Assembly (NCBI RefSeq): GCF_026723765.1
Contig: NZ_CP113524.1
Coordinates: forward strand, 496,001 to 560,000
DNA length: 64,000 bases
Origin: Lacrimispora xylanolytica
GTDB taxonomy: Bacteria > Bacillota > Clostridia > Lachnospirales > Lachnospiraceae
Reading direction: 5' to 3'
Part shown: positions 22,637 through 38,868 of the stretch, piece by piece
How the letters are laid out: every line of letters begins with the position of its first letter
Numbering within the stretch: the stretch's first letter is position 1
The notes under the pieces: generated by a model
What the model was told of the DNA's origin: nothing
The model's input: only the letters and a program-made list of their open reading frames with translations
Database searches by the model: none
Program-made: the position numbers and the translations under genes

Positions 22637-23479
22637 ATGAAGGAAAGAAATCATGTTGGGATGCTGCATCCAAAACAGCCGGGCTTTGTTCTGGTCACGG
22701 GCGCATATAAGAAATACAGTCTTATGGATTATGGAATTTCCCATTTCTATCAGTTTGATGCGGAGTGTGATTTCATGACTGCGATTCCCGATGCCTGTGT
22801 GGATATCCTCTTTTACAATACAGGCACCCGTTTGGAATCCAGGGTCGCAGGCACCCTTCTTACAAAATCTGAGGTGGAGACAGCGGGTAAATGCAGACAT
22901 TTTGGAGTGCGCTTCCTTCCTGGGGTCAATCCGGTCCTTAAGCATAGAAAGATGTCAGAGCTGGTGAGTAAAGAACAGAGCTATGAGGATATGTTTGATT
23001 CGAATTCAGAAAGAGATCAATTATTTGAAGCACTGTGGAAGGAAGAAAGCTTTGAGCAGAGAATTAAGACCTTTCTTTTGTTTTATCGAAAGAATTATGA
23101 GACCCAGCAGGAAGCATACAGCCTTAAGTCATATCTGCGTAAGGAAATCATGGCCTCAGCCGGCAATCTTAAGTTAAATGAGCTTCAGGAAAAAACGGGG
23201 TATTCTCTTCGTTACTTAAACAAGGTCATTACAGAGGAATTTGGCATGGGGCCAAAAGAGCTTCTTCGGATTATCCGGTTTCAAAATGCCATCGACGAGC
23301 TGACAAAGACTGTGAACCGTCCGGATATGACAAGGGCGGCCCTTGATACGGGATACTATGACCAGTCTCATTTTATTAAGGACTTTAAGGAGTTTACCAG
23401 TCATACTCCCTCAAAATATCTAAACAGTCTGGTGACAAACAGTTATCAGGAGAAGTTAAAGGTCATTACCAGGATGTAA
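22637..23479 (+). CDS. AraC-family regulator with N-terminal DUF6597-like domain
   Basis: A 280-residue protein. The first ~110 residues (DACVDILFYNTG, HFGVRFLPGVNPVL) look like the beta-rich sensing domain common in this AraC subgroup. The C-terminal ~100 residues form the double helix-turn-helix (LNELQEKTGYSLRYLNKVITEEFGMGP, AALDTGYYDQSHFIKDFKEFTSHTPSKY). It precedes the RidA/amine-dehydrogenase operon by 165 bp on the same strand and is the most likely regulator of it (inference from position). Confidence 0.87.
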   Translation: MKERNHVGMLHPKQPGFVLVTGAYKKYSLMDYGISHFYQFDAECDFMTAIPDACVDILFYNTGTRLESRVAGTLLTKSEVETAGKCRHFGVRFLPGVNPVLKHRKMSELVSKEQSYEDMFDSNSERDQLFEALWKEESFEQRIKTFLLFYRKNYETQQEAYSLKSYLRKEIMASAGNLKLNELQEKTGYSLRYLNKVITEEFGMGPKELLRIIRFQNAIDELTKTVNRPDMTRAALDTGYYDQSHFIKDFKEFTSHTPSKYLNSLVTNSYQEKLKVITRM

Positions 23480-23569
23480 TGCTCCCTTGAGAAAAAATAA
23501 ATATGTAGTTCCGATTTTTACAATTATTATCCGATGTCCGACGGTAGAATGTAGAGAAATAAAGGACAG

Positions 23570-23609
23570 AGAGGTCTTGTGATCATGACGATCACAGGGC
23601 CTCTTTTTT
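23570..23609 (+). terminator. Terminator-like hairpin 36 nt before the RidA gene
   Basis: AGAGG / CCTCT outer arms with an inner TGTGATC / GATCACA stem, followed by a T-run. Only 35 nt separate the T-run from the RidA start, too little for a full promoter. So either it terminates the AraC transcript with readthrough, or it is a leader attenuator of the operon. Confidence 0.75.
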
Positions 23610-23644: not shown

Positions 23645-24034
23645 ATGAAACGAACCAATTACTCGTCGGGAGCACCGCTTGAAGAACTGGCAGGGTATTC
23701 CAGAATGGTTAAGATAGGGGAACACATCTATATCGGAGGAACCACAGCCGTCCAGCCAGATGGCACAGTCTTTGGAGAAACTCCATATGACCAGGCAAAA
23801 TACATTTTTACAAAATTCATAGAGTTACTGAAACAGGCCGATGCAGATGCCTCTCATGTATTCAAGGTAAACGCGTTCTTAACAGATATGGAATCTGCCA
23901 AAGAGGTGGGGAGAGCATATTCTGAATTCTTCAAAGAAGTAAGGCCATTGTTCACCATGGTGGAAACTCCAAAGCTCAACCGTCCGACTCAGTTTGTAGA
24001 GATAGAATTAGAAGCAATGACCGGATGTGAGTAA
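23645..24034 (+). CDS. RidA (YjgF/YER057c/UK114) family imine deaminase
   Basis: A 129-residue protein that in the characterised family hydrolyses reactive enamine/imine intermediates to keto acids and ammonia. Seen motifs are YSRMVKIGEHIYIGGTT near the N-terminus, KVNAFLTDMESAKEV in the middle, and RPTQFVEIELEAM at the end. The canonical RidA catalytic Arg is not in its usual GN(V/L)R setting here, so it belongs to a divergent Rid subgroup. First gene of the operon, with AAGGAGGTTGAGAA before the ATG. Its place next to an imine-forming dehydrogenase fits imine clearance. Confidence 0.88.
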   Translation: MKRTNYSSGAPLEELAGYSRMVKIGEHIYIGGTTAVQPDGTVFGETPYDQAKYIFTKFIELLKQADADASHVFKVNAFLTDMESAKEVGRAYSEFFKEVRPLFTMVETPKLNRPTQFVEIELEAMTGCE

Positions 24035-24076
24035 TAAATAACTGCAGGCATGAAACAAGAAATGGAGGAAGTCAAA

Positions 24077-25213
24077 ATGAGCGATCCAAGAATTGATTTT
24101 TTATATCTGGGTGAAGAGGAAATGATTCAGGCAGGTGTTACAGATATGGCAGGCTGTGTGGAGGCCATGGAGGAAATGTTTCGATTGATGAAGCTGGGGG
24201 ATTTTCGAATGGGCGGGCCTAACGGCAATTCCCATGGCGTGATGATGACATTTCCAGAGGAGTCCCCATTTCCCAACATGCCTACCGACGGACCGGACCG
24301 GAGATTCATGGCAATGCCTGCTTACCTTGGAGGGAAGTTTGATATGGCCGGCATGAAGTGGTACGGCTCCAATACGGAAAACAGAAAGAAGGGACTGCCA
24401 AGGTCCATTCTCATGCTCACCTTAAACGATAAGGATACGGGAGCACCCCTTGCCTATATGTCCGCCAACATATTAAGTGCCTTCCGTACAGGGGCGGTGC
24501 CTGGAGTGGGAGTCAAATATTTCTCCAAAGAAGATTCCAAGGTGGTGGGAATTATCGGCCCAGGCGTTATGAGTAAAACAGCCTTTGACGCTACGATGGC
24601 AGTGAGAGAGGGGATTGAGACGGTTAAAATTAAAGGACGAAGCAAGGAATCCATTGACGGCTTTATCCGTTATATTAAGGAAAAGTATCCCAGTGTAAAG
24701 AACATCCAGGTGGTAGAGACCATGGAAGAGGCGGTAAGAGATTCCGATATCGTTCACGTGGCAACCTCAAGCCCTACCGGCGATATCAAGGAATATCCCT
24801 ATATCGAAGAGGCATGGATCAAGCCCGGTGCCATTCTCTGCTGTCCGGCAGCCGCAAGGTTTGATGATGACTTTATCTGTAACCGGGCGAGGACCGTGAC
24901 CGATAACATTCAGCTTTACGAAGCCTGGAAGGAGGAAATCGGGGAGAACGCTTACCACACCATCCCAATTCCAGCCGTCCGCTGCATGGACTTAGTCGAA
25001 GAAGGAAAGTTAAAGCCAGAACAGATTGACGACTTAGGAGACGTGATTATGGGAACGGTCCCGGCACATCGGAAGGAAGATGAAATCGTCATCTATTCCG
25101 TAGGTGGAATGCCCATTGAAGACGTTGCATGGGGAACCATTGTTTACCGGAATGCACTTTTAAAGGGAATCGGGAAAAAGCTTAATTTATGGGAAACCCC
25201 ATATCTGGCATAA
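24077..25213 (+). CDS. Ornithine cyclodeaminase/mu-crystallin family protein
   Basis: A 378-residue NAD(P)-binding protein. The conserved core has MAMPAYLGG...AGMKWYGSN, SAFRTGAVPGVGVKYF and the Rossmann segment VVGIIGPGVMSKTAFDAT, then DIVHVATSSPTGD. Family members cyclise ornithine or reduce ketimines. I recall close relatives annotated as tyramine oxidase subunit B, which cannot be verified here. It is longer than the ~320-residue bacterial norm. The start at 24077 has GGAGG 8 bp upstream; an ATG at 24050 does not. Probable role: reduction or handling of the imine made by the following dehydrogenase. Confidence 0.85.
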   Translation: MSDPRIDFLYLGEEEMIQAGVTDMAGCVEAMEEMFRLMKLGDFRMGGPNGNSHGVMMTFPEESPFPNMPTDGPDRRFMAMPAYLGGKFDMAGMKWYGSNTENRKKGLPRSILMLTLNDKDTGAPLAYMSANILSAFRTGAVPGVGVKYFSKEDSKVVGIIGPGVMSKTAFDATMAVREGIETVKIKGRSKESIDGFIRYIKEKYPSVKNIQVVETMEEAVRDSDIVHVATSSPTGDIKEYPYIEEAWIKPGAILCCPAAARFDDDFICNRARTVTDNIQLYEAWKEEIGENAYHTIPIPAVRCMDLVEEGKLKPEQIDDLGDVIMGTVPAHRKEDEIVIYSVGGMPIEDVAWGTIVYRNALLKGIGKKLNLWETPYLA

Positions 25214-25229
25214 GGAGAGGAGGAGAATC

Positions 25230-25544
25230 ATGAGAATCACAGAACATCCAGTTCTCGGAACCATGGAAGAAAAAAAGACAATTACATTTACTTATGATGG
25301 AACTCCCATCACAGGCTATGAGGGGGAACCCATTGCCATTGCCCTGGAGGCTGCTGGAATCATGATCCACCGTTATACCAAAAAGAACCATGAGCCAAGA
25401 GGCATCTTTTGTGCCATTGGAAGATGCACAGACTGTGTCATGGTGGTAGATGGTAAGCCCAATGTAAGAACCTGTATCACTCCGTTAAAAGAAGGAATGG
25501 ATGTGAGGACCCAGTACGGTGTCGGAACAAAGGAAAACGGATAA
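25230..25544 (+). CDS. 2Fe-2S subunit of HcnA/SoxD-like amine dehydrogenase complex
   Basis: A 104-residue plant-type ferredoxin-like subunit. Cysteines occur in FCAIGRCTDCVMVVDG and later in RTCITPL, the pattern (C-x4-C-x2-C...C) of the small gamma/HcnA subunits of D-hydroxyproline dehydrogenase, opine oxidase and HCN synthase. It relays electrons between flavins within the complex. The gene lies 16 bp after the cyclodeaminase-like gene and 26 bp before the FAD subunit, behind GGAGAGGAGG. Confidence 0.88.
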   Translation: MRITEHPVLGTMEEKKTITFTYDGTPITGYEGEPIAIALEAAGIMIHRYTKKNHEPRGIFCAIGRCTDCVMVVDGKPNVRTCITPLKEGMDVRTQYGVGTKENG

Positions 25545-25570
25545 GAGATGGAAAACGGAGGGCAGGAGCC

Positions 25571-27154
25571 ATGACAAGATACGATCTAATAATTATAGGA
25601 GCGGGTCCGGCTGGCTTGTCAGCCGCAATCGAAGCTGCGGCATGCGGCCTTAAGGTCATTGTATTTGATGAGAATGCAAAGCCCGGCGGACAGCTTTTTA
25701 AACAAATCCATAAATTCTTCGGTTCAAAGGAGCATAAGGCCAAAATCAGAGGCTATCAAATCGGAGAGGAGCTTTTAAAGGAAGCCAATGAAAATGGAGT
25801 AGAGGTAGTTTTAAATGCCACAGTAGCAGGACTTTATCAGGATAAGGAAATCACGGTCTCCATTGACCAGGAAATCAGACATTATAAAGGGGATGCGGTG
25901 ATTGTAGCCACGGGAGCATCGGAAAACATGGTTCCTTTTGAAGGCTGGACCCTTCCGGGAGTCATTGGCGCAGGTGCGGCCCAGACCATGATGAACTTAC
26001 ACGGGGTAAGACCTGGTAGTAGAGTGTTGATGCTGGGCTCCGGAAACGTAGGGCTTGTGGTCAGCTTTCAGCTTCTTCAGGCTGGCTGTGAAGTGGTGGC
26101 ACTGGTGGATGCGGCACCAAAGGTGGGAGGATATGGAGTCCATGCGGCAAAGGTGGCACGGTGTGGTGTTCCCTTTTACTTATCCCATACCATAATAAAG
26201 GCAGAAGGAACGGACCGGGTCACCGGGGTTACCATAGGGGAAGTGGATAAGAACTGGCAGGTCATTCCAGGGAGCAGCAAGCATTTTGAAGCAGATACCA
26301 TCTGTCTTGCGGTCGGATTATCTCCCATGTCCCAGCTGACCAAGATGGCAGGCTGTGATATGAAGGATACTCCCACCGGTTACGTGCCGGTATGTGACGA
26401 AACAGGAGCCACAAGCATTCCTGGAATCTTTGCAGCAGGAGATGTATCCGGCATTGAAGAGGCCAGCTCCGCCATGATAGAAGGAAGAATCGCAGGAATC
26501 AGTGCAGCAGAATATTTAGGCTTTGCCACCAGAGAGAAGCAGGAAGAAAGAATCAAGGAATTAAAGGAAGCTTTGGTAAGCTTACGGGAAGGCATGTTCG
26601 CACCGGAGAACCGTGGAAAAAACGTGGAAAAAACAGATGAGGGCATTGACGTCTCCTTAAATCTTCTAAAAAAGGGATATGTGGCAGATTCTGAAATCAG
26701 CCGTTTTCCTGGAGTCACCAGAGGAAAAGGAATTCATCCGGTCATCGAATGCACCCAGAACATTCCCTGTAACCCCTGTCAGGATTCCTGCCCCAGAAAA
26801 TGCATTCTGGTGGGCAATAAAATCACAGCTCTTCCAGTATTTCAGGAAGAAAAAGGCTGTACCGGCTGCGGCTTATGCGTTTCCTCCTGCTCCGGTCAGG
26901 CCATATTTTTAATCAATGAGGAATTGGAGCCTGGCTTTGCCTCTATCACCATGCCATATGAATTTCTTCCTCTCCCAGAGCCGGGAGATATGGGAGCTGG
27001 CCTTGACCGGAGCGGAGCGGAGGTTTGCGAGGCAGAGGTCATCGAGGTGAAATCAAAAAAAGCCTATGACCACACCTCTTTGCTTACCATCAAGGTACCC
27101 GTAGATATGGCAATGAAAGCCAGATTCTTTCGCAGACAGGAGGTAGAGACATGA
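25571..27154 (+). CDS. FAD/NAD(P)-binding subunit with 4Fe-4S domain (HcnB/OoxA-like)
   Basis: A 527-residue subunit. The N-terminal dinucleotide fold is IIGAGPAGLSAAIEAAACG (residues 7-25), a second is VLMLGSGNVGLVVSFQLLQ (about 153-171), and IPGIFAAGDVSGIEEAS is the FAD-proximal motif. Unlike the usual HcnB subunit, it has a C-terminal ferredoxin region with Cys-rich strings CNPCQDSCPRKC and CTGCGLCVSSC, enough for about two [4Fe-4S] clusters. This is probably the electron-output subunit. It overlaps the next gene by 4 bp. Confidence 0.9.
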   Translation: MTRYDLIIIGAGPAGLSAAIEAAACGLKVIVFDENAKPGGQLFKQIHKFFGSKEHKAKIRGYQIGEELLKEANENGVEVVLNATVAGLYQDKEITVSIDQEIRHYKGDAVIVATGASENMVPFEGWTLPGVIGAGAAQTMMNLHGVRPGSRVLMLGSGNVGLVVSFQLLQAGCEVVALVDAAPKVGGYGVHAAKVARCGVPFYLSHTIIKAEGTDRVTGVTIGEVDKNWQVIPGSSKHFEADTICLAVGLSPMSQLTKMAGCDMKDTPTGYVPVCDETGATSIPGIFAAGDVSGIEEASSAMIEGRIAGISAAEYLGFATREKQEERIKELKEALVSLREGMFAPENRGKNVEKTDEGIDVSLNLLKKGYVADSEISRFPGVTRGKGIHPVIECTQNIPCNPCQDSCPRKCILVGNKITALPVFQEEKGCTGCGLCVSSCSGQAIFLINEELEPGFASITMPYEFLPLPEPGDMGAGLDRSGAEVCEAEVIEVKSKKAYDHTSLLTIKVPVDMAMKARFFRRQEVET

Positions 27155-27477
27155 GTAAGAGAAATGACCGGTCCAGGGAATTAAAGGAATTTATGCAGGA
27201 GCCGGATGATGGTCTTATCATCTGCCGCTGTGAGGAGGTCACCAAGGGAGAAATCAGAAAGGCTGTTCATGAGGGAATGTTCACCTTAACGGAAATCAGG
27301 CGTTTTCTCCGCTCCGGCATGGGGCTTTGTCAGGGGCAGACCTGCGGAAATCTGGTAAAGAGAATCGTGGCCAAAGAACTGGGAGTATCCTCTCTTGAGC
27401 TGGAGCCGACTCCCTCAAGAGCCCCCATGAGACCCATTGAGATGAAGGTACTTGGAAATGAACGAAGGGAGGAGTAG
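27151..27477 (+). CDS. BFD-type [2Fe-2S] subunit
   Basis: A 108-residue protein with the bacterioferritin-associated-ferredoxin fold: CRCEEVTKGEI near residue 25 and GMGLCQGQTCGNLV near residue 60, i.e. C-x-C ... C-x4-C. In OoxA/HcnB-type complexes this domain is commonly fused to the C-terminus of the FAD subunit; here it is a separate polypeptide whose start overlaps the FAD subunit stop by 4 bp (ATGA). It likely holds a [2Fe-2S] between flavin sites. Confidence 0.88.
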   Translation: MSKRNDRSRELKEFMQEPDDGLIICRCEEVTKGEIRKAVHEGMFTLTEIRRFLRSGMGLCQGQTCGNLVKRIVAKELGVSSLELEPTPSRAPMRPIEMKVLGNERREE

Positions 27478-27481
27478 GAGC

Positions 27482-28609
27482 ATGTCAAAGTGTGCGGATA
27501 TCATAATTATCGGCGGAGGAATCATAGGAAACGCCACTGCTTATTATCTGGCAAAAAAGGGCTGTTCCGTTATCGTCCTGGAGAAAAGCGACCATATGGG
27601 AAATGGCGGGTCCAGCAGAAATGGAGGCGGCGTGAGGCAGTCAGGCCGTGACAAACGGGAATTGCCTCTTGCCATGTACGGAATCAAACATCTATGGCCT
27701 CATCTATCGGAAGAGCTTGGCATGGATGTGGAATATTATCAGCACGGAAATCTCCGTCTGGGAAAAACGGAAGACCATCTAAACATACTGAAAAAACTGG
27801 CAGACAATGCATCATCCATGGGACTTGATGTCCAGATGGTAGATGGAAAAGAAGCAAAAAGCATCTGTCCTTATCTTTCCGACGAGGTGGTGGGAGCAAG
27901 CTGGTGTAAGACGGACGGCCACGCAAATCCCATGCTTGCCACTCTGGCCTATTATCGAAGCGCAAGAGCCCTTGGCGTTCAGTTCATCACAGGAGAAGAG
28001 GTGTTGAGCATCCGAAAAATCAGGGGTAAGGCAAGGCAGGTTATTACCTCAGAAGGCAGTTATGAGGCAGAGACCATTATACTGAGTGCAGGCTATGACA
28101 GCAGAAAGCTGGCTGCTACGGTTGGGATCGACATTCCTGTGAATCAGGCGCTGTTAGAGGTTCTGGTCACAGAGGCACAGCCTCCCATGTTTTATCAGAT
28201 GCTTGGAACGGCAATGGCAGATTTCTACGGGCACCAGAGCACCCATGGGTCATTTGTATTCGGAGGAGCTTCCGGATACGAGGGGGTCAATAAAGATGAC
28301 GGGACTCCGGTGACCAGCAGCCTTACTGCTTCCTGCATATGCAGAGGAATCATGAAATATTTCCCCTGTCTTTCCGAAGCGAAAATCGTCAGGACCTGGG
28401 CTGGCTGGATCGATGCTTGTGCAGACCACGTTCCGGTCATCAGCCAGGTGGAGGAGGTTCCCGGACTGATCCTGGGCTGCGGCTTCTCAGGTCATGGGTT
28501 TGGAATCGCTCCCACGGCTGCTACATTACTTTCCCAGATCGCGGTTGGAGAAGAACCCATTCTGGATGTAAGTGCATTTCGCTACGACCGATTCAAGGCA
28601 AAAATATAA
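27482..28609 (+). CDS. DAO-type FAD-dependent amine/amino-acid oxidoreductase (catalytic subunit)
   Basis: A 375-residue protein of the glycine oxidase/sarcosine oxidase beta family. FAD-binding motif is IIIIGGGIIGNATAYYLAKKG at the N-terminus, then GNGGSSRNGGGVRQSGRD around the flavin site, and LGCGFSGHGFGIAP at the C-terminus. It should dehydrogenate a C-N bond of an amine or amino acid, passing electrons to the iron-sulfur subunits. The start is the ATG after AGGGAGGAGTAGGAG, 5 bp from the previous gene. It is the likely substrate-determining subunit; the substrate is unknown. Confidence 0.9.
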   Translation: MSKCADIIIIGGGIIGNATAYYLAKKGCSVIVLEKSDHMGNGGSSRNGGGVRQSGRDKRELPLAMYGIKHLWPHLSEELGMDVEYYQHGNLRLGKTEDHLNILKKLADNASSMGLDVQMVDGKEAKSICPYLSDEVVGASWCKTDGHANPMLATLAYYRSARALGVQFITGEEVLSIRKIRGKARQVITSEGSYEAETIILSAGYDSRKLAATVGIDIPVNQALLEVLVTEAQPPMFYQMLGTAMADFYGHQSTHGSFVFGGASGYEGVNKDDGTPVTSSLTASCICRGIMKYFPCLSEAKIVRTWAGWIDACADHVPVISQVEEVPGLILGCGFSGHGFGIAPTAATLLSQIAVGEEPILDVSAFRYDRFKAKI

Positions 28610-28645
28610 CAAGACAAGGAAGCTTAAAAACCTTAGGTGGCAAAG

Positions 28646-28671
28646 GCGTCTACGTACTGTAGACGCTTTTT
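28646..28671 (+). terminator. Intraoperonic terminator before the permease gene
   Basis: Perfect stem GCGTCTAC / GTAGACGC with five T after it. It lies 33 nt before the permease start, as with the hairpin before RidA, so permease expression is probably tuned by partial termination or readthrough. Confidence 0.8.
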
Positions 28672-28704
28672 GTGTTCCTATAAGCATTTAAAGGAGGAGC
28701 GGAA

Positions 28705-30042
28705 ATGGAAAATAACACAACACTGAAACGAACGCTGAAAACAAAAGATCTGATTATTTACGGCCTTATCTTTATGATTCCTTTGGCCCCTGCCGCCATG
28801 TACGGCACCTTTTTAGCCCCCTCCGGGGGTATGGTTGCCTTATGTTACCTGATTGGAATGGTGGCGATGTTCTTTACCGGACTCAGCTATAAGCTGATGT
28901 CCCAGAAATACCCTCTATCAGGGTCTGTCTATGTCTATGTTCAAAAGGGAATCAACCCTGCCTTTGGCTTTCTCACAGGCTGGTCCATTCTTCTTGATTA
29001 CATCCTGCTTCCGGCCACGGTGGTGATCATTGGAAGCTCCTTTGCCAATGCCATGTTTCCAGGGGTGCCGGTCTGGATCTGGGCCATGGGATTTATTTTA
29101 TTCAGTACCGTGACCAACATCATTGGCGTGGATATTATGTCAAAGTGCAGCTGGATCTTGTTTGCCTTACAGATTGCAGTGATACTTGCCTTTATTCTCT
29201 GTACCCTTCGGTTGCTTTTTAATGGTACCATTCATTTTAATACCATATCCTTTTATAATCCGGAACAGTTCGATCTATCCGGTATTTTAAGGGCAACGGG
29301 AATCGTAATCTTAAGCTACCTTGGATTTGATGCCATCAGTACCCTGGCAGAAGAGACGCTTAACCCGGAAAAGGCAGTTGGAAGGGCTATTATCTTAGCA
29401 ATCCTGGTCATTGGGGTGATTTTTATTGTCATTACCTTTTTTGCAGGAATGGTCTATCCTAATTATGAAGAATTGAATGTAGATACTGCTTTCATTGATG
29501 TAGTAAGCTTTGTAGGGGGCAAATGGCTGACAGCCATCACTTCCTTCACCCTTGTCTTATCCTTTGGCGTAGCAACCACCCAGGCATCTCATACGGCGGT
29601 TTCCAGAGTTCTCTTTGCCATGAGCAGAGACGGCGTGCTGCCAAAGCAGTTGTCCTATATCAGCAAAAAATACCATACTCCCTTTGTGGCGATCATATTT
29701 GTAGGCATTCTCATTACTCCTGTGGCCCTTTTCTGTTCCCTGGAGGTCATAACCACCATGGTAAGCTTTGGCGCACTTTTTGGGTTCATCCTTTTAAACT
29801 GTGCGGTCATCATTAAGTTCTATCTTCAAAATGAAGAATCCAGAAGGGGACTTAAGGGAAAAGAATTCTTTTCCTATCTGGTATGTCCCTTCATTGGTCT
29901 GGTGGTTGATGCATGGATATTTATCAATCTTGGCTTCAATGCACATACGGTAGGCTTCTTATGGCTGTTTTCCGGCTTCTTATACCTGGTCTGGGTGACC
30001 CGGTTCTTTAAAAGTCCGGTTCCTCAGCTTGATATGACCTGA
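28705..30042 (+). CDS. APC-superfamily amino acid/amine permease
   Basis: A 445-residue membrane protein with about twelve hydrophobic segments. It has the APC start KDLIIYGLIFMIPLAPAAMYG, the TM6 region GFDAISTLAEETLNPEKAVGR and SFGVATTQASHTAVSRVLFAMSRDGVLP in TM8-9. Relatives import amino acids or polyamines/amines by proton or sodium symport. AAAGGAGGAGCGGAA precedes the ATG. As last gene of the operon it most likely brings in the substrate of the dehydrogenase complex. Confidence 0.9.
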   Translation: MENNTTLKRTLKTKDLIIYGLIFMIPLAPAAMYGTFLAPSGGMVALCYLIGMVAMFFTGLSYKLMSQKYPLSGSVYVYVQKGINPAFGFLTGWSILLDYILLPATVVIIGSSFANAMFPGVPVWIWAMGFILFSTVTNIIGVDIMSKCSWILFALQIAVILAFILCTLRLLFNGTIHFNTISFYNPEQFDLSGILRATGIVILSYLGFDAISTLAEETLNPEKAVGRAIILAILVIGVIFIVITFFAGMVYPNYEELNVDTAFIDVVSFVGGKWLTAITSFTLVLSFGVATTQASHTAVSRVLFAMSRDGVLPKQLSYISKKYHTPFVAIIFVGILITPVALFCSLEVITTMVSFGALFGFILLNCAVIIKFYLQNEESRRGLKGKEFFSYLVCPFIGLVVDAWIFINLGFNAHTVGFLWLFSGFLYLVWVTRFFKSPVPQLDMT

Positions 30043-30075: not shown

Positions 30076-30122
30076 AAGGAAGAGAAAATGGCTTTGAACA
30101 TAAAAGCCTTTTTCTCTTCCTT
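30076..30122. terminator. Bidirectional terminator between permease and racemase genes
   Basis: AAGGAAGAGAAAA pairs with TTTTCTCTTCCTT, with GGCTTT/AAAGCC inside. Serves both convergent genes. Confidence 0.85.
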
Positions 30123-30125
30123 CCT

Positions 30126-30818
30126 TTATGAAGTACAGCCAGACCTTGCAGCTTTTTCTGCGTGAATCCTCGCCGTATCAAATACGGGAAGTGAGGTGTC
30201 CTCCTGCTTTATCATCAGACCGATTTCCGTACAGCCAAGAATCACGCTCTGTGCTCCCTGAGTTTCAAGCTGTCCGATAATCCGCAGATATTCTTTTTTT
30301 GAGTCCGGGGACACGATTCCCAGACACAGCTCTTCAAAAATCACCCGGTTGATGATTTCAATATCCTGTGGTTCTGGAATCAGGATTTCAATTCCGGCTT
30401 TCACAAGCTTTTCGATATAAAAGGTCTCTGTCAAGGTATACTTTGTTCCAAGAAGTGCCGCCTTTGTAATCCCGTGCTGCTTTAATTCCTGGGAAACAGC
30501 ATCTGCGATATGAAGAATGGGGATGGCAATGTTTTCCTGAATCTGAGGTACCACCTTATGCATGGTATTGGTACAGATTACGATAAAATCCGCACCAGCA
30601 GCTTCTAAAGATCTGGCTGCATCAATCATCATGGTGGCACAGATATCCCATTCACCTTTTGACTGATGTTTTTCAATTTCATAGAAATCTACACTGTTTA
30701 AGAGAATCTTTCCAGAGTGCAGGCCTCCAAGCATTTCTTTCACTGTTGTATTGATGATCTGATAATATGTCATGGTGCTTTCCCAGCTCATTCCGCCGAT
30801 TAATCCGATGGTCTTCAA
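30126..30818 (-). CDS. Aspartate/glutamate racemase family protein
   Basis: A 230-residue PLP-independent racemase-like protein. Both catalytic Cys are visible in ICTNTMH and LGCTEIG, and IGLIGGMSWEST at the N-terminus is characteristic of the YgeA/aspartate racemase branch. It may supply D-amino acids or epimerise another amino acid. The start is a TTG with GGAGG 8 bp upstream, giving MKTIGLIGG; a TTG seven codons further up has no ribosome site. It is beside the amine dehydrogenase operon but convergent, so a functional tie is only suggestive. Confidence 0.88.
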   Translation of the reverse strand: MKTIGLIGGMSWESTMTYYQIINTTVKEMLGGLHSGKILLNSVDFYEIEKHQSKGEWDICATMMIDAARSLEAAGADFIVICTNTMHKVVPQIQENIAIPILHIADAVSQELKQHGITKAALLGTKYTLTETFYIEKLVKAGIEILIPEPQDIEIINRVIFEELCLGIVSPDSKKEYLRIIGQLETQGAQSVILGCTEIGLMIKQEDTSLPVFDTARIHAEKAARSGCTS

Positions 30819-30992
30819 TGTCTTAGCCTCCGCTCTCAAGTTTTATGCTCCTATCCTATCACAAGTGAAATCGGTTTTCCACGTTTTTTATAATTCCTGC
30901 ATTTACTTGATGGGAAAAATATAATAAAATGTATTAGAATTATGGAAACATGTTTTACTTTTGATAGTTACCTGAAAGACGAGGATCATTGA

Positions 30993-33298: not shown

Positions 33299-34420
33299 TC
33301 ATTCAATCAGAAAATATTCCCGTATATAAAAAGCCATTAACAATTCAAATTTAATCTTGGAGTCATTCAGCTCCGTATGCAACAATTCTTTTATCTTTTT
33401 CAGACGGTAAACAATGGTATTTCGATGGGCATGCATGCTGGAAGCAGTCTCCAGCAGATTGCAGTCCGAAAGAAGAAAGGTTCTTAAGGTATCCACATAG
33501 TCTGAATCATGTAAAGCATCAAACTCTTCCAAAACTCCCAGACTTTTCTGACTGATTCCCTTTAGCATTTCCGGGTCTGAGGAGGAAAAAAGAATCTGAA
33601 AAATCCCCAGCTCTTCAAAATATACAGAAGGAATACTCCAAAAGGAAGCCGCCGCCAGGGCAAACCTTGCCCGTTTATAGCAGAGTCCAAAGTCCATAAG
33701 GGATGAAAAAGAATTGCTGATTCCAAGGGTTATGCTGTCACAAAAAAGAAGAATATCAAGGAGCTCATTAAGGGGGATATTAGGCTGGGACATGAGCACT
33801 ATCAGGATCTGAAGATGATCATGTTCAAATAAGTGGTATTTTAGTTGTTTGTGGTTTAAGGAAAAGGTGATTCTTGTTGTGGTCTGAAGGTTCGAGATGA
33901 CAAAGATACGGTATTCAGCCTTCGTAGGAAAGCCGTGCTGATTTAAGGTGAGAAGTGTACTTTCATGAAGGGGAGACTGATAGATGGCTCCAAGAAAGGC
34001 GGCGTTGATAAGATCTGCATTTCTGGTGCTTAACAAAAGGGTTCGGCAATAATCCTGCATAATGTCCACCAGATGAATCTTCCAGGGCATGGTGATTAAG
34101 GGGAAGTCACTGTTTTTGCAAAACTCCTTAATTTCCTCTGTGATATCTCCTTCGTGGATATACTGCCCTACATTGATTAAGATTCCGCTGCAGCTTCTGG
34201 TAACAAGGGCGCAGATGAATTCAGAAAGCGTGATTCCGCTCTGCATAAAAAGCCCGGTGGTAATCACAAGCTCTCCCCCCTTTAAAAATGGCATGTTCTG
34301 AAAATCCTCAGCCAGATAGACCCAGGAGATTGAGTTGGTAAGTCCTGCTTCGCCGCTTAAAAGCTTTAAGCTGTATTTTTCCTTCGTGGTGTGGTAAAGA
34401 TCCAAAACCTGAGTTCTCAT
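33299..34420 (-). CDS. PucR-family transcriptional regulator
   Basis: A 373-residue regulator. The N-terminal ~120 residues match the PucR purine-catabolism-like domain (LYHTTKEKYSLKLLSGEAGL, SWVYLAEDFQNMPFLKGGELVITTG) and the C-terminus holds the PucR helix-turn-helix (LLETASSMHAHRNTIVYRLKKIKEL). Relatives activate amino-acid, GABA or purine catabolism genes. Start set at MRTQVLDLYHT with AGGGAGG 8 bp upstream; longer reading is non-genic. Divergent from the kinase-like gene and the amino-acid catabolic cluster, which it likely controls. Confidence 0.9.
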   Translation of the reverse strand: MRTQVLDLYHTTKEKYSLKLLSGEAGLTNSISWVYLAEDFQNMPFLKGGELVITTGLFMQSGITLSEFICALVTRSCSGILINVGQYIHEGDITEEIKEFCKNSDFPLITMPWKIHLVDIMQDYCRTLLLSTRNADLINAAFLGAIYQSPLHESTLLTLNQHGFPTKAEYRIFVISNLQTTTRITFSLNHKQLKYHLFEHDHLQILIVLMSQPNIPLNELLDILLFCDSITLGISNSFSSLMDFGLCYKRARFALAAASFWSIPSVYFEELGIFQILFSSSDPEMLKGISQKSLGVLEEFDALHDSDYVDTLRTFLLSDCNLLETASSMHAHRNTIVYRLKKIKELLHTELNDSKIKFELLMAFYIREYFLIE

Positions 34421-34580
34421 GTAGGCGTCCTCCCTGATGATATGATGGTACAGTATATCATGCTTTGTACTTGGAGTACAACAATAACCGAAAAAATTGG
34501 AGGATACACCTATTGAAGCAGGAGAGTCCACAGCGTATAATATCAAAATAATACAGAACCTGAGGAAAGAGGTGTTCCAT

Positions 34581-35189
34581 GTGAGGGAAACATTTGTTGT
34601 TACCATTACGAGACAATTTGGCAGCCTGGGAAGACCCATTGCACGGCTGGTCAGTGAGAAGCTGGGAATTGAATACTATGACAGGGACATTGTTGAAATG
34701 ACTTCAAAGGATTTAAATCTTCCCGTTTCAGCTATCAGCGATGTTGAAGAAAGTGCAAAAACAGCATTCTTTAACATGAATTATCCACTGGGCATGGGAA
34801 CCACAGCCATTCAGGATTCCGTTTTTTCCGCCCAGAGAAAGATTATCGTAGACTTAGCAGAGCGGGAATCCTGCATTATCGTAGGGAGATGTGCGGATCA
34901 CATTTTAAGGGATCATAAAAATATCATCCATATTTTTATTTACGCTCCTTATGAAGCAAGGCTTTCCAACTGCATCGAGCGGCTGAATATGAAGCCGGAT
35001 GAAGCAAAGAAGATGATCGCCTCCGTAGATAAGGCCAGAGAATCCTACCACAGGCATTACTGCGGATACTTAATGTCTGATAAGGACTATAAGAATGTAA
35101 TGATTGATTCCAGCTTACTTGGAGTAGAAGGAACCTGTGATATCTTAACAGAGCTTATCCGCAAGAAATTTCCGAACCTTGTTTCTTAA
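34581..35189 (+). CDS. Cytidylate kinase-like family protein
   Basis: A 202-residue P-loop protein of the cytidylate_kin_2 family. ITRQFGSLGRPIARLVSEKLG is the modified P-loop region, YYDRDIVEM follows, and CIIVGRCADHILRD, HIFIYAPYEARL and SYHRHYCG are family motifs. These proteins resemble CMP kinase but their substrates are mostly unproven. The GTG start has AGAGG 8-9 bp upstream; a TTG 28 codons earlier is discarded. A terminator follows, so it is its own unit beside the PucR gene. Confidence 0.8.
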   Translation: MRETFVVTITRQFGSLGRPIARLVSEKLGIEYYDRDIVEMTSKDLNLPVSAISDVEESAKTAFFNMNYPLGMGTTAIQDSVFSAQRKIIVDLAERESCIIVGRCADHILRDHKNIIHIFIYAPYEARLSNCIERLNMKPDEAKKMIASVDKARESYHRHYCGYLMSDKDYKNVMIDSSLLGVEGTCDILTELIRKKFPNLVS

Positions 35190-35220
35190 CAGGGCAGACA
35201 AGTAAATATCAGATACGTCC

Positions 35221-35261
35221 AGGGCAATGGAGCTTTTGAAAAAAAGACATTGCTCTTTTTT
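35221..35261 (+). terminator. Terminator between kinase-like gene and ABC operon
   Basis: AGGGCAATG pairs with CATTGCTCT (one G-U), loop about 18 nt, followed by a T6 run. It ends 35 nt before the ATPase gene. Confidence 0.8.
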
Positions 35262-35295
35262 GTTAAAAAAACCAGGAGAGAGGAGGACTAAGGTC

Positions 35296-36018
35296 ATGCT
35301 GCAAATAAAAAATTTATCAAAATGTTTCGAGGATCTGGAGGTTTTGCGGGATGTGAATATGACCGTCAGTAAGGGAGAGGTCGTTGTTATTATCGGTCCC
35401 TCCGGTTCTGGAAAAAGCACATTTTTACGGTGCATTAACCTGTTAGAAAAGCCTACCGGAGGAGAGATTTTGTATCTGGGAGACAACATAGTCCATTTAG
35501 GGAAGAAGGTAACGGATTACCGAAAGCAGGTGGGAATGGTATTTCAGAGGTTCCATCTCTTTCCCCTGATGAGCACACTTGAAAATGTAATGTATGCGCC
35601 CATGAAGCTTAATAAGCTGCCTCAAAAGGAAGCCAGGGAGGAGGCACTAAAGCTCCTTGAAAAAGTAGGGCTTTCCCACAAGGCGGATTCCTATCCCTCG
35701 TCCTTATCCGGAGGGCAGCAGCAAAGAGTCGCCATTGCAAGAGCCCTTGCCATGAAGCCGGAAATCCTTCTCTTTGATGAACCCACCTCCGCTCTTGATC
35801 CTGAGCTGGTAGGAGATGTTCTGGAGGTCATGAAGCAGCTGGCCGGAGAAGGAATGACTATGATCGTAGTGACCCATGAAATGGGGTTTGCCAAAGATGT
35901 GGCGGACCGGGTCATCTTTATGGACGGCGGCTACATCGTAGAAGAAGGACCGCCGGATGAAATATTTACCCAGCCGAAAAATGAAAGAACAAAGGCATTC
36001 TTATCCAGAGTGCTTTAG
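35296..36018 (+). CDS. Polar amino acid ABC transporter ATPase (GlnQ type)
   Basis: A 240-residue ATPase with Walker [10 protein letters not shown] (about residues 36-44), the Q-loop [12 protein letters not shown], signature [15 protein letters not shown], Walker [15 protein letters not shown] and H-loop VTHEM. Typical of PAAT-family importers. Start taken at MLQIKNLSK after AGAGGAGGACTAAGG; the ATG at 35227 lies inside the preceding terminator. Followed 12 bp later by the permease gene. Confidence 0.94.
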
Positions 36019-36030
36019 GGAGGTGACACC

Positions 36031-36726
36031 ATGGAACTTAATTTCGCAAAAGCATTCGGAACCTTACTGCCCAGTCTTTTAGGAGGCGTGGGAATCGTCC
36101 TTTATATTACTCTGGCAGGCTTTTCCCTGGCCTTAATCGCAGCCTTACTCATAGCCATCGGAAGACTTTCAAAGCATAAGCTTCTTGGCCGGTCTCTTGG
36201 AATCATCATTGAACTGGTCCGGGGAACGCCTCTTCTGGTTCAGCTGTTTTATATCTATTATGTAGTCCCCACCCTGATTAACGGAGTGCTGCTGGCTTTT
36301 GGATATGAAGCCAATGTCCAGCTAAGGGCATCTACCTGCGGTATCATCGGTTTTGCAGTCAATTATGGCTGCTATATGTCAGAGGTCATACGGTCAGCCA
36401 TACTGGCCATCGATCCCGGTCAGAGGGAAGCCGGCCTTGCCCTTGGCTTTAGCGAGAAGAAGGTGCTCTTTCATTTTATCATACCTCCGGCTTTGCGAAA
36501 TTCCGTACCCGTTTTTGGAAATTATCTGGTCATGTTAATTAAAGACACATCCCTTCTTGCCATGATTTCGGTTCAGGAGCTTCTCCTTCGAACAAAAACC
36601 TTTGCCTCCCAGACGTTTCTTACGGTCGAGGCTTACACCATACTGGCATTGGTATATCTGATGTTAAGTCTTCCCCTTTCCCAGCTTGGCGGGATTTTGG
36701 AGAGAAGGCTGAAAAGGACCCCATAA
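36031..36726 (+). CDS. Polar amino acid ABC transporter permease
   Basis: A 231-residue membrane protein with about five segments and the His/Glu/Glu-permease loop ELVRGTPLLVQLFYIYYVVP, plus the EAA coupling motif (REAGLALGFSEKKVLFHFIIPPALRN). It pairs with the ATPase just upstream as a homodimer or with itself. AGGGAGGTGACACC precedes the ATG. Members take up Gln, His, Arg, Cys or other polar amino acids. Confidence 0.94.
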   Translation: MELNFAKAFGTLLPSLLGGVGIVLYITLAGFSLALIAALLIAIGRLSKHKLLGRSLGIIIELVRGTPLLVQLFYIYYVVPTLINGVLLAFGYEANVQLRASTCGIIGFAVNYGCYMSEVIRSAILAIDPGQREAGLALGFSEKKVLFHFIIPPALRNSVPVFGNYLVMLIKDTSLLAMISVQELLLRTKTFASQTFLTVEAYTILALVYLMLSLPLSQLGGILERRLKRTP

Positions 36727-36755
36727 CAAGCATAATAAAGAAAGGAAACAGGAGT

Positions 36756-37634
36756 ATGAAGAACAGAACAAGAAGAAATGGAATCCTATGGCTCATGGTA
36801 TTTACGCTGACAGTGGTGTCACTTATGGGCTGTCAGGGAAAGAAAGCAGAAACAAAGACAGTAGCAGGAGAATCCGCCATGCTGACAAAAGCAAAGGAAA
36901 AGGGCTATCTCCTCATTGGCTCCTCCAACGACGCCCCATTTTCTTATACGGATGTGGAATCCGGTAAGTTAAAGGGACTTGATATTGAAATATTAAAGGA
37001 GATATGCAAGCGTTTGGGAATCGGCGATATCCAGATGAAGGTCACAGACTTTTCCAATTTATTGGTGGAGCTTAACAACAAGAACGTGGATATGGTTGCA
37101 GATGCCATGTATGTAAAAGATGAACGGCTTCAGATTGCTGCTTTTACGGATAAATGGTATCAGGAAGGCGAAGCAGTGGTAATCCCGGAAAGCTCCTTCA
37201 TAAAGACCAAGGAAGATTTAAAGGATAAAAAAGTAGGAGCCCAGCCAGGAACCACCTTTTATGAGACCGCGCAAAAATGGCTGGATGAAGGAAAAATCGG
37301 CGGACTGGAAGCGTATGACAATCAGGCGACCTTAATGACTGCTGTCAATACCGGGAAAGTGGATGCTGTAGTCACCGATGGAATCGTTGCAGGCTATACC
37401 CTTTCTTCTGACAGCTCCTTAAAGCTTAAGCTTCTTTCCCCATATGAGGCAGAGGCAAGCGGTCAAATCGGTGCTGCGGTGCGCTTTGAAGACAAAGAAT
37501 TTCTGGCAGAAATAAACAAGGCGCTGAATGATATGAAGGCAGATGGAACGCTGTTAAAGATATTAAAGGATTACGGTCTGACAGAGGATTACCTTGTAGG
37601 TGTAGAAGAAGGAAAGACAACAAATGTAAAATAG
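36756..37634 (+). CDS. Amino acid-binding lipoprotein of the ABC transporter
   Basis: A 292-residue SBP_bac_3 family receptor. Signal peptide with lipobox LMGC (Cys26). Core motifs are GYLLIGSSNDAPFSYTD, KGLDIEILKEICKRL, DMVADAMYVKDERL and VGAQPGTTFYETAQKW. Likely anchored outside the membrane and feeding the permease upstream. The binding site resembles those for basic or small polar amino acids, but specificity cannot be read. AAAGGAAACAGGAGT precedes the ATG. Confidence 0.93.
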   Translation: MKNRTRRNGILWLMVFTLTVVSLMGCQGKKAETKTVAGESAMLTKAKEKGYLLIGSSNDAPFSYTDVESGKLKGLDIEILKEICKRLGIGDIQMKVTDFSNLLVELNNKNVDMVADAMYVKDERLQIAAFTDKWYQEGEAVVIPESSFIKTKEDLKDKKVGAQPGTTFYETAQKWLDEGKIGGLEAYDNQATLMTAVNTGKVDAVVTDGIVAGYTLSSDSSLKLKLLSPYEAEASGQIGAAVRFEDKEFLAEINKALNDMKADGTLLKILKDYGLTEDYLVGVEEGKTTNVK

Positions 37635-37700
37635 CAGTATGCAGACCCGCTTTTAACAAGCGCTGGCAAGCCTGCTGTTCGAGAGGAAAGAGGATTTTAC

Positions 37701-38831
37701 ATGGAATTTCAGTATTATTTACCGGTCAACCTGGTGTTTGGGCGGGGGAAGGCAGATGTCATAGGAGAAAGAGCAGCCGCTCTTGGGACCCGGGCACTAA
37801 TTGTTACCGGCGGAAGCAGCACCAGAAAATCAGGACTCTTAGACAGAGCCATAAAGCAGCTAGAAAATCATGGAGTTTCCTATGTATTGTTTGACAAAGC
37901 AGAACCAAATCCCCTGACGACCACCGTATGGAAAGGGGCCGAAACTGCTCGAAGGGAAGGGTGCGACTTCATCCTTTCAATAGGAGGCGGAAGCAGCCTG
38001 GATACGGGAAAGGGGATTGCCTTTCTGGCAGTAAATGAAGGGGATATCAGCGATTATATTTATGGAAAGAAGAAAAGCGATAAGGCCCTTCCTGTTCTGG
38101 CAGTACCAACCACCTGCGGAACAGGAAGCGAGGGAAATGGCTTTGCGGTAATGACCAATCCAGACACCCTGGATAAGAAATCCCTGCGGTGCAGCGCCAT
38201 CGTTCCGGCTTGTTCCATTGTGGACCCTCAGCTCATGATGACAATGCCAGGAAACATACTTGCTTCCGTTGGCTTTGATGCCCTTTGTCACAACATAGAT
38301 GCTTACTTATCTGCCACATCTCAGCCCCTTACGGAGCTTATGGCCTTAGAAGGAGTAAGACTTGCAGCAGAAAGCCTTGTGAGCCTTTATGAGGGTTCAA
38401 AAGATTTAAACCATTGGGATCAGCTCTCTCTTGCCAGCACTCTTGGCGGTATGGTAATCAATACCGCTGGGGTCACGGCTCTTCATGGAATGGAGCACCC
38501 GGTCAGCGGTTTAAAGGACGCCGTTCACGGAAGAGGACTTGCGGCACTGGCACCTTATGTGTTTGAAGCATCCATAAAGGGGGCACCCCATAAGTTTTCT
38601 GCTCTTTCCAGGCTTCTTGGGGGAAAGGGAGAATGGGATTTTACAGACCAGATCCGAAGCCTTATCACTCGTTTGGGCCTTACGGAAGGTCTTAAGGATA
38701 TGGGAGTAGAAGAAAGTGATTTAAATTGGCTGACAGAGAACTGCTTTAAGGTTTCTGCCCCCAGCATGGCAAACCATCCGGTGGTATTTACCCCGGAAGA
38801 AGTTAAGGAAATCTATAGAAAATCACTGTAA
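37701..38831 (+). CDS. Iron-containing (type III) alcohol dehydrogenase
   Basis: A 376-residue Fe-ADH. NAD-binding segments GGSSTRKSG and SIGGGSSLDTGKGIAF, then PTTCGTGSEGNGFAV. Metal ligands are expected in GFDALCHNIDAYLS and in HGMEHPVSG / DAVHGRGLAAL. It should reduce an aldehyde to an alcohol (or reverse). With the aminotransferase 37 bp downstream, a natural reading is reduction of the semialdehyde product to a hydroxy acid, as in 4-hydroxybutyrate dehydrogenase. The pairing is inference. Confidence 0.92.
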   Translation: MEFQYYLPVNLVFGRGKADVIGERAAALGTRALIVTGGSSTRKSGLLDRAIKQLENHGVSYVLFDKAEPNPLTTTVWKGAETARREGCDFILSIGGGSSLDTGKGIAFLAVNEGDISDYIYGKKKSDKALPVLAVPTTCGTGSEGNGFAVMTNPDTLDKKSLRCSAIVPACSIVDPQLMMTMPGNILASVGFDALCHNIDAYLSATSQPLTELMALEGVRLAAESLVSLYEGSKDLNHWDQLSLASTLGGMVINTAGVTALHGMEHPVSGLKDAVHGRGLAALAPYVFEASIKGAPHKFSALSRLLGGKGEWDFTDQIRSLITRLGLTEGLKDMGVEESDLNWLTENCFKVSAPSMANHPVVFTPEEVKEIYRKSL

Positions 38832-38868
38832 GACGTTGTGAAAACGCAGCGCAGAATGGGAGGATATT

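Follow-up and report, generated by a model that had tools for sequence, protein, structure and literature searches.

A predicted four-subunit flavin/iron-sulphur dehydrogenase and a linked OCD-family enzyme in Lacrimispora xylanolytica and other Clostridia

Seven consecutive genes on the plus strand are located at positions 23645-30042 of the 64,000-nt stretch of Lacrimispora xylanolytica DNA analysed here (contig NZ_CP113524.1, positions 496,001 to 560,000; the whole stretch is called the window). They encode, in this order, a Rid protein, an OCD-family (ornithine cyclodeaminase/mu-crystallin) enzyme, a Fer2 protein, an FAD subunit, a BFD protein, a DAO-family protein and an APC permease, and all of them were found at the coordinates, in the order and on the strand given in an earlier reading of the bare DNA letters (the sequence-only reading). 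The Fer2-FAD-BFD-DAO core is a conserved unit, beyond what would arise by chance, and each of the 18 genomes with a full-length FAD subunit, out of 150 sampled in the window's family, also has the OCD gene. We tentatively propose that the four core genes specify an oxygen-independent four-subunit flavin/iron-sulphur dehydrogenase that is paired with an NAD(P)H-using OCD-family enzyme and serves amine or amino-acid nitrogen. The cluster is read as the anaerobic counterpart of a proteobacterial OCD-Rid-FAD oxidase cassette which is annotated as tyramine oxidase. The genes of the cluster are:

23645..24034, plus strand: Rid-family protein without the catalytic Arg, an optional member (PF01042; TIGR00004 below cut-off)
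24050..25213, plus strand: OCD/mu-crystallin-family enzyme of the NAD(P)-binding type, likely start ATG 24077 (PF02423, NF004848)
25230..25544, plus strand: gamma-type subunit, [2Fe-2S] Fer2_4 (PF13510)
25571..27154, plus strand: alpha-type subunit, FAD/Pyr_redox_2 with a C-terminal tail of the 2x[4Fe-4S] type, approximately residues 331-527 (PF07992, nine-Cys tail)
27151..27477, plus strand: delta-type subunit, [2Fe-2S] BFD (PF04324 (Fer2_BFD), PF17806)
27482..28609, plus strand: beta-type catalytic subunit of the DAO family with an FAD motif and an FMN-type R-x-W (PF01266)
28705..30042, plus strand: APC-family amino-acid/amine permease (PF13520 (AA_permease_2))

The genes are spaced as in an operon: the Fer2 gene is flanked by gaps of 16 and 26 nt, the FAD and BFD genes overlap by 4 nt, 4 nt separate the BFD gene from the likely DAO start and 95 nt the DAO gene from the permease gene. 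The likely starts of the OCD (ATG 24077) and DAO (ATG 27482) genes were taken from the length of orthologs and are not the mechanical starts of the open reading frames (ORFs).

Conservation of the core and its linkage to the OCD gene

A collection of genome contigs was searched with an alignment of 13 FAD-subunit sequences, which gave at least 503 candidate stretches; the best 80 named loci were used. In 46 of the 80 the sequence extended at least 9 kb to either side of the FAD gene (the complete loci; the 34 short ones were left out), and companion genes were counted in these 46 by sequence cluster, Rid and OCD genes by BLAST. The Fer2, FAD, BFD and DAO genes were contiguous in 46/46 complete loci and an OCD homolog was found in 44/46, every time on the same strand. 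Other companions were variable, with a Rid gene in 14 complete loci, a clustered APC permease gene in 30 and an AraC regulator gene in 31. Searching all 80 loci by BLAST gave DAO in 78, Fer2 in 79, BFD in 78, OCD in 68 and Rid in 23. The sequence-only reading had proposed to look for the co-occurrence of six families in Clostridia; it was observed for the core and the OCD protein but not for Rid.

The linkage was also evident at the level of genomes. A full-length FAD subunit (matches with E <1e-200) was found in 18 of 150 genomes from the window's family, a sample to which the window's own genome belongs, so the unit is common in this family; an OCD protein over the NF004848 cut-off was found in 20. 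All 18 genomes with the FAD subunit have the OCD protein, as have only 2 of the 132 others (Fisher p = 2.4e-21), and one of these two OCD-only genomes (G410 and G533), G533, carries a divergent complex elsewhere (L067). The OCD protein and the complex very probably share one pathway. In a draw of 398 genomes from the phylum the OCD protein was over the cut-off in four: the window genome and G222 have an adjoining complex, the stretches fetched from G280 and G291 (L063, L064) have none.

Lacrimispora, Anaerostipes, Desulfosporosinus, Acetobacterium and Clostridium magnum are among the named carriers, as are many gut and rumen isolates and metagenome-assembled genomes. Of the best 80, the named relative nearest to the window is [Clostridium] aerotolerans, with 98% identity in the FAD subunit. 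In one chromosome of Lacrimispora xylanisolvens (L107, 8400-9600) the OCD gene appears to be in two ORF pieces, possibly by a frameshift.

Subunits of the predicted complex and the Rid protein

The Fer2 motif C-x4-C-x2-C-x11..13-C was present in 74/74 clustered relatives (C-x4-C-x2-C-x12-C in the window protein), the BFD motif C-x-C...C-x4-C in 71/71 and the nine-Cys pattern in the tail of the FAD subunit in 79/80 relatives; the split-off BFD and the additional clusters in the FAD subunit, both pointed out in the sequence-only reading, are therefore conserved features. The tail behaves as a module: it is a free-standing ORF in L068 and L070 and fused to BFD in L061, all with divergent complexes. 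In a profile comparison it resembled multi-cluster ferredoxin domains such as that of RnfB (best E 3e-07). A tandem pair of DAO complexes was seen at L060:4525-14500; in the second of them a separate ORF encodes the 4Fe-4S module, and two genes for iron-containing alcohol dehydrogenases (Fe-ADH) follow.

The closest solved chain to the DAO subunit was 1y56_B (E 4.8e-40 with the single sequence, 2e-56 with a profile), followed by beta subunits of sarcosine oxidases. This chain is labelled 'sarcosine oxidase' in the structure table; we take it to be the beta subunit of the Pyrococcus L-proline dehydrogenase complex PDH1. The window's alpha subunit matched 1y56_A with an E of 2.5e-18, with the best stretch covering only residues 4-158. 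Together with the shared family motifs, the match to 1y56_B places the electron chain with the opine/D-hydroxyproline/proline dehydrogenases; the sequence-only reading had compared it to HcnABC, opine oxidase and D-hydroxyproline dehydrogenase. Of the functional models, soxB gave the best score with the DAO subunit (169.8 bits), and the D-amino-acid dehydrogenase model PRK00711 scored 92.6 bits against a cut-off of 383. The cut-offs for heterotetrameric sarcosine oxidase were missed (TIGR01373, 169.8 vs 529; TIGR01372, 135.5 vs 1164). Since soxB and the proline dehydrogenase beta subunit both belong to secondary-amine enzymes, a link to secondary amines is suggested. The complex is, with high probability, an imine-forming dehydrogenase.

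An R-x-W motif of the beta subunit is putatively involved in FMN binding between alpha and beta (Watanabe et al., PMC4575208). Both residues, R303 and W305, were found in 76/76 clustered clostridial relatives, and the Arg was also found in 10/10 divergent clostridial beta subunits and in the beta subunits of two three-subunit Rhizobium enzymes. The 12 single-chain oxidases of the proteobacterial cassettes have Q, E, N, A or D at this position and R in no case. This distribution therefore supports a multi-subunit FMN enzyme, but for the clostridial case only. The beta subunit is predicted to carry FAD and FMN, the alpha subunit FAD and two [4Fe-4S] clusters and the Fer2 and BFD subunits [2Fe-2S] clusters. 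In an assembled complex, electrons would travel via the clusters to the acceptor, which is probably NAD+ or ferredoxin, as the sequence-only reading had supposed in place of oxygen; such an acceptor fits the module set, the ferredoxin-like tail and the anaerobic hosts.

In the scheme put forward in the sequence-only reading, the complex makes an imine, RidA hydrolyses it and the OCD enzyme reduces the remainder. There is precedent for it in Niehaus et al. (PMC4433059): genes for FAD amine oxidases are found clustered with those for RidA or, in some cases, Rid3, and RidA and Rid2 of S. enterica hydrolyse imines produced by an amino acid oxidase. The 14 complete loci with a Rid gene agree with this scheme, the 32 in which no Rid was found do not. 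Rid as the imine hydrolase was rejected on its active site. Phe103 of the window Rid aligns with Arg105 of RidA. All 27 clostridial cassette Rids, a number that includes near-copies, have F (21), C (3) or N (3) here, and all 12 proteobacterial ones T, S, L or M, so that the catalytic Arg of the RidA imine deaminases is present in 0/39 aligned cassette Rids. The alignment controls gave Arg for E. coli RidA, TdcF and RutC and W for YjgH. According to Niehaus et al. (PMC4433059), the Arg is common to the subfamilies RidA to Rid3 and an Arg-less Rid7 did not hydrolyse a leucine-derived imine; residue 105 is described as the determinant of deaminase activity by Hodge-Hanson and Downs (PMC5619798). 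Because the equivalent of Arg105 is missing, the cassette Rid is unlikely to be a standard imine hydrolase, and we consider the scheme as a whole very improbable.

The OCD-family enzyme and candidate pathways

The OCD protein scored 601.2 bits with NF004848 ('tyramine oxidase subunit B', cut-off 362). It failed the model for ornithine cyclodeaminase (EC 4.3.1.12; NF005762, 52.9 bits vs 350). After its own family the best model was that for SbnB (TIGR03944, 168.8 bits, below the cut-off of 326.9), and the best solved relative was 4m54 (E 2.4e-31), named 'Putative ornithine cyclodeaminase', which we take to be SbnB. SbnB acts on a secondary-amine adduct of an amino acid. K103 and R146, presumably the catalytic Lys and the carboxylate-binding Arg as judged from the family, are kept in 95/95 aligned OCD rows, three outgroup OCD-like proteins included, and the Rossmann-type glycines G170 and G172 are retained in the rows of the larger clostridial group (type 1) and of the Proteobacteria. 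Because K103 and R146 are conserved throughout the alignment, the OCD protein should be active on a carboxylate-bearing substrate.

The OCD protein was also considered as an exclusive partner of the complex; this was rejected, since distant NF004848 proteins occur without a complex in the fetched stretch. Their neighbours are a TRAP transporter and an ORF for a glycerate-kinase/enolase fusion in L192, a TRAP transporter in L193, hydantoinase A/B in L063 and a dipeptide-type transporter in L064. In 14 control genomes NF004848 was over the cut-off once, in Corynebacterium glutamicum.

OCD and complex would act on one shared C=N or C-N bond and so obtain nitrogen from an imported amine or amino acid. 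Using NAD(P)H, the OCD enzyme may couple the amine with a 2-oxo acid, in the manner of opine-forming enzymes, to give an N-substituted amino acid. The complex may then oxidise this to an imine, which would yield an aldehyde or ketone and an amino acid. With electrons passed on to NAD+ or ferredoxin the pair could be redox-neutral. In sponges, strombine and tauropine dehydrogenases catalyse the condensation of an amine and pyruvate. Enzymes of this marine-sponge type are also part of the pfam02423 superfamily and, in P. putida KT2440, a homolog of NAD(P)H opine synthases from another family (pfam02317) flanks the genes of a flavin opine dehydrogenase (PMC4575208); these are precedents for the two halves, OCD and flavin dehydrogenase. 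This order, capture by the OCD enzyme first and cleavage by the complex second, is favoured because SbnB is the nearest model and structure and because of the opine enzymes in pfam02423 and the arrangement in KT2440, and it is a possible order that may well prove wrong.

A relative of this pairing was found in Proteobacteria. Matches to the OCD protein were obtained in 546 plasmid records and spanned at least 80% of the query in 113 of these; 14 records, all from the best 24 matches, were examined. The gene order OCD, Rid, single-chain FAD-binding oxidoreductase was found in 12/12 annotated records, with an APC permease within the stretch in 9/12 and a regulator in 10/12 (AraC 7, unspecified helix-turn-helix 3), and no Fer2, FAD-subunit or BFD genes were annotated beside the oxidase in these 12. 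The sequence-only reading, which knew of no described pathway with just this set, had therefore overstated its novelty. Full-text literature searches, with most subscription journals outside their coverage, returned no text on the clostridial multi-subunit form, on 'tyramine oxidase subunit B' or on the gene set. The plasmid OCD was annotated as 'tyramine oxidase subunit B' in 11/12 records; this is the name of a curated model and may be propagated annotation. When the OCD gene of a Klebsiella plasmid was searched in E. coli, no match was obtained.

The OCD protein of the window is 56.5-57.9% identical to six proteobacterial examples, but the proteobacterial oxidase shares only 24-29% with the window's DAO protein. 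A FastTree tree was built from 95 OCD proteins, of which 79 came from named clostridial loci and 12 from Proteobacteria; the window's protein and three outgroup proteins made up the rest. In it the proteobacterial ones nest among the type 1 group. A tree of 52 DAO proteins contained a clostridial group (100/98) and a proteobacterial group (100/100); Rhizobium and Aminobacter single-chain oxidases joined the latter (100/99), as did PuuB with lower support (83/67). Orthology of the oxidases of aerobes and anaerobes was not supported, as the two sides formed no exclusive pair. Given the difference in identity and the lack of an exclusive pairing, the OCD protein looks like the constant element and the oxidase like the part that was swapped between aerobic and anaerobic versions; exchange of subunits within opine dehydrogenases has been described by Watanabe et al. 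(PMC4575208). A pocket-like motif, S-S-R-N-x-G...R...R...D/E-x-P-L, was considered as a sign of a common substrate and discarded as not specific, since it is also present in the single-chain oxidase of L175, where no OCD is annotated in the 9-kb stretch. A parallel case, in which a complex is likewise paired with an OCD protein, is a plasmid of Rhizobium NXC14 (L173:1172-9110), where a three-subunit flavin dehydrogenase is accompanied by another OCD-family protein. Genes for a single-chain FAD oxidase, a threonine/serine dehydratase, an aldehyde dehydrogenase and a member of the Asp/Glu racemase family are found there as well.

A second branch of clostridial loci (L133, L143, L149, L157 and L158) has two OCD genes, a PotABCD-type ABC transporter and an Fe-ADH beside the same Fer2-FAD-BFD-DAO core and, in most, a PII gene. 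Companion genes give the system a nitrogen context: among the 46 complete loci a PII gene was counted in 21, a PotA-like ATPase in 13 and an Fe-ADH in 10, and in L099 AmtB is next to PII, both beside the cluster. The Fe-ADH of the second branch could serve the disposal of an aldehyde.

In a first alternative the DAO complex would itself oxidise a free primary amine, e.g. tyramine, directly to the aldehyde, and OCD would be a second subunit without a redox function. The name and score of NF004848 speak for this, and so do the APC or polyamine-type transporters, PII and Fe-ADH or aldehyde dehydrogenase genes in some loci. A purely structural subunit would, however, have no need of the Rossmann-type glycines, K103 and R146 that the OCD protein retains. 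Known DAO-family routes for amines act on amino-acid-linked amines, as PuuB and N-methylglutamate dehydrogenase do, and the name on which the idea is built may, as said, be propagated. A direct oxidation is thus unlikely.

A second alternative is a redox inversion or salvage, in which the complex oxidises a D- (or other) amino acid to the imino acid and OCD, using NAD(P)H, reduces the imino or oxo acid to the L-amino acid. DauB of P. aeruginosa, presumably a member of the OCD family, would be a model for this. As described in PMC5619798, DauA makes iminoarginine, Rid2/Rid3 deaminate it and DauB converts 2-ketoarginine to L-arginine. Such a scheme would be redox-neutral as well, alanine dehydrogenase and imino-acid reductases belong to the OCD family, and the conservation of K103 and R146 in all 95 rows suits it equally. 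Adjoining the window's cluster, an Asp/Glu racemase-like gene is located at 30126-30839 on the minus strand, and racemase-family genes are also annotated near the Rhizobium complex L173 and the aerobic cassette in L169. As a cue to D-Glu or D-Asp the racemase was nevertheless rejected and left out of the unit, because among the 80 FAD-anchored named loci only the near-identical L079 shares it; the genes near L173 and L169 are contrary to this dismissal. The inversion is further disfavoured by the preference of the DAO subunit for the sarcosine-type over the D-amino-acid dehydrogenase models (169.8 vs 92.6 bits), and it leaves the PotABCD-type transport and Fe-ADH of the second branch, and the aldehyde dehydrogenase beside two aerobic cassettes, without explanation. 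We regard it as doubtful.

The proposed pairing of an OCD enzyme that captures the amine with a complex that cleaves the adduct has itself several observations against it. The redox inversion fits the same two enzymes, and the capture step is not singled out by the carboxylate-type Arg, since ordinary imino-acid reductases keep it too. Amine/imine couples are usually less reducing than NADH, so that reduction of NAD+ would be uphill unless the products are removed. No Fe-ADH or aldehyde dehydrogenase gene adjoins the window's own cluster. Furthermore, 9/10 complete loci with a clustered Fe-ADH also have a PotA-like gene and 0/13 with a clustered Rid have an Fe-ADH, so that the argument from aldehydes comes mainly from another branch; in the plasmid records an aldehyde dehydrogenase is located directly 3' of the oxidase in only 2/12 (L164, L171) and more distantly in four further annotated ones. 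Two complete loci, of Acidaminococcus fermentans (L129) and Acetobacterium bakii (L131), lack OCD in the stretch, and the distant NF004848 proteins of L192, L193, L063 and L064 have no complex in the fetched stretch. The Trp of R-x-W is kept in only 3/10 divergent clostridial beta subunits, the rest having Y, F or M. In the trees, the inner forks that place the proteobacterial OCD proteins are weak (0.31, 0.90), as is the fork that unites the clostridial and proteobacterial oxidases (76/28, with several long branches).

A still wider view, which we think rather doubtful, would have the cluster represent an oxygen-free, redox-closed route for amine nitrogen that is widespread in Clostridia of gut, rumen and soil, with an aerobic twin, perhaps mislabelled as tyramine oxidase, in which a one-chain oxidase replaces the complex. 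If the unit breaks down amines or amino-acid adducts without oxygen, dietary and microbial amines would have a further route in the gut, and the NF004848 OCD family and the Arg-less Rid proteins would gain a function that can be tested.

The surroundings of the cluster contain these further features:

22637..23479, plus strand: AraC-family regulator, probably the regulator of the cluster (PF12833)
23568..23606, plus strand: terminator-like hairpin in the AraC/rid interval, 17 pairs and a T tail (consensus scan only)
30090..30108, both strands: terminator-like hairpin 3' of the permease gene (consensus scan only)

In L080-L088, L092 and L107, homologs of the AraC protein (46-51%) are encoded upstream of the Rid/OCD pair, but on the opposite strand. 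The terminator-like sites numbered 10 in total, no excess over shuffled sequences (mean 9.1, sd 3.3). A second amine/amino-acid set follows downstream (33299-40218) and comprises a PucR regulator (33299-34639, minus strand), a polar amino-acid ABC transporter, an Fe-ADH and a class III aminotransferase; a similar ABC/Fe-ADH/aminotransferase group is located beside the divergent DAO complex of L070.

Comparison with known systems

The proteobacterial cassette shares with the window's cluster an OCD protein of 57% identity, an Arg-less Rid, the same partner classes and often APC and AraC genes. It differs in its oxidase, which is one chain of approximately 430 amino acids with 24-29% identity, has no FMN Arg and is nearer to other single-chain oxidases than to the clostridial beta subunit. 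DauAB is similar in that an FAD dehydrogenase is combined with a second enzyme that yields an L-amino acid (PMC5619798). In the heterotetrameric sarcosine oxidase a DAO beta subunit and Fer2/Pyr_redox/A3-type modules are found again, but the window's proteins are far below the soxA/soxB cut-offs, the alpha modules are distributed over three genes and a [4Fe-4S]-type tail is added. DauA, for its part, is a single-chain D-amino-acid dehydrogenase without Fe-S subunits.

The archaeal dye-linked L-proline dehydrogenase PDH1 (1y56) provides the closest solved beta subunit, and its alpha chain matches that of the window best over residues 4-158 only; an alpha-beta-gamma-delta heterotetramer is reported for archaeal L-proline dehydrogenase in PMC8704557. 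Also close is the group of the flavin opine dehydrogenase OdhABC, D-hydroxyproline dehydrogenase and hydrogen cyanide (HCN) synthase, which likewise have a DAO beta subunit with R-x-W, a Fer2-type gamma subunit, an FAD alpha subunit and a BFD-type motif (PMC4575208). The features of opine, D-hydroxyproline and L-proline dehydrogenases (OpnDH, D-HypDH, L-ProDH) found here are the DAO beta subunit with an N-terminal dinucleotide motif and R-x-W and the gamma motif C-x4-C-x2-C-x11-12-C. Their BFD-type motif, however, is inside the alpha chain, and in 71 clustered loci BFD is separate; the modules agree, but they are fused differently. The window's cluster further differs from the OdhABC group in the nine-Cys tail of the 2x[4Fe-4S] type in alpha, in the linked OCD gene and in its carriers, which are mainly Clostridia. 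Because BFD is not part of alpha, the complex falls outside OpnDH and D-HypDH in the strict sense; judged from its sequence, it would work like these enzymes and be a new form among the heteromeric flavin amino-acid dehydrogenases.

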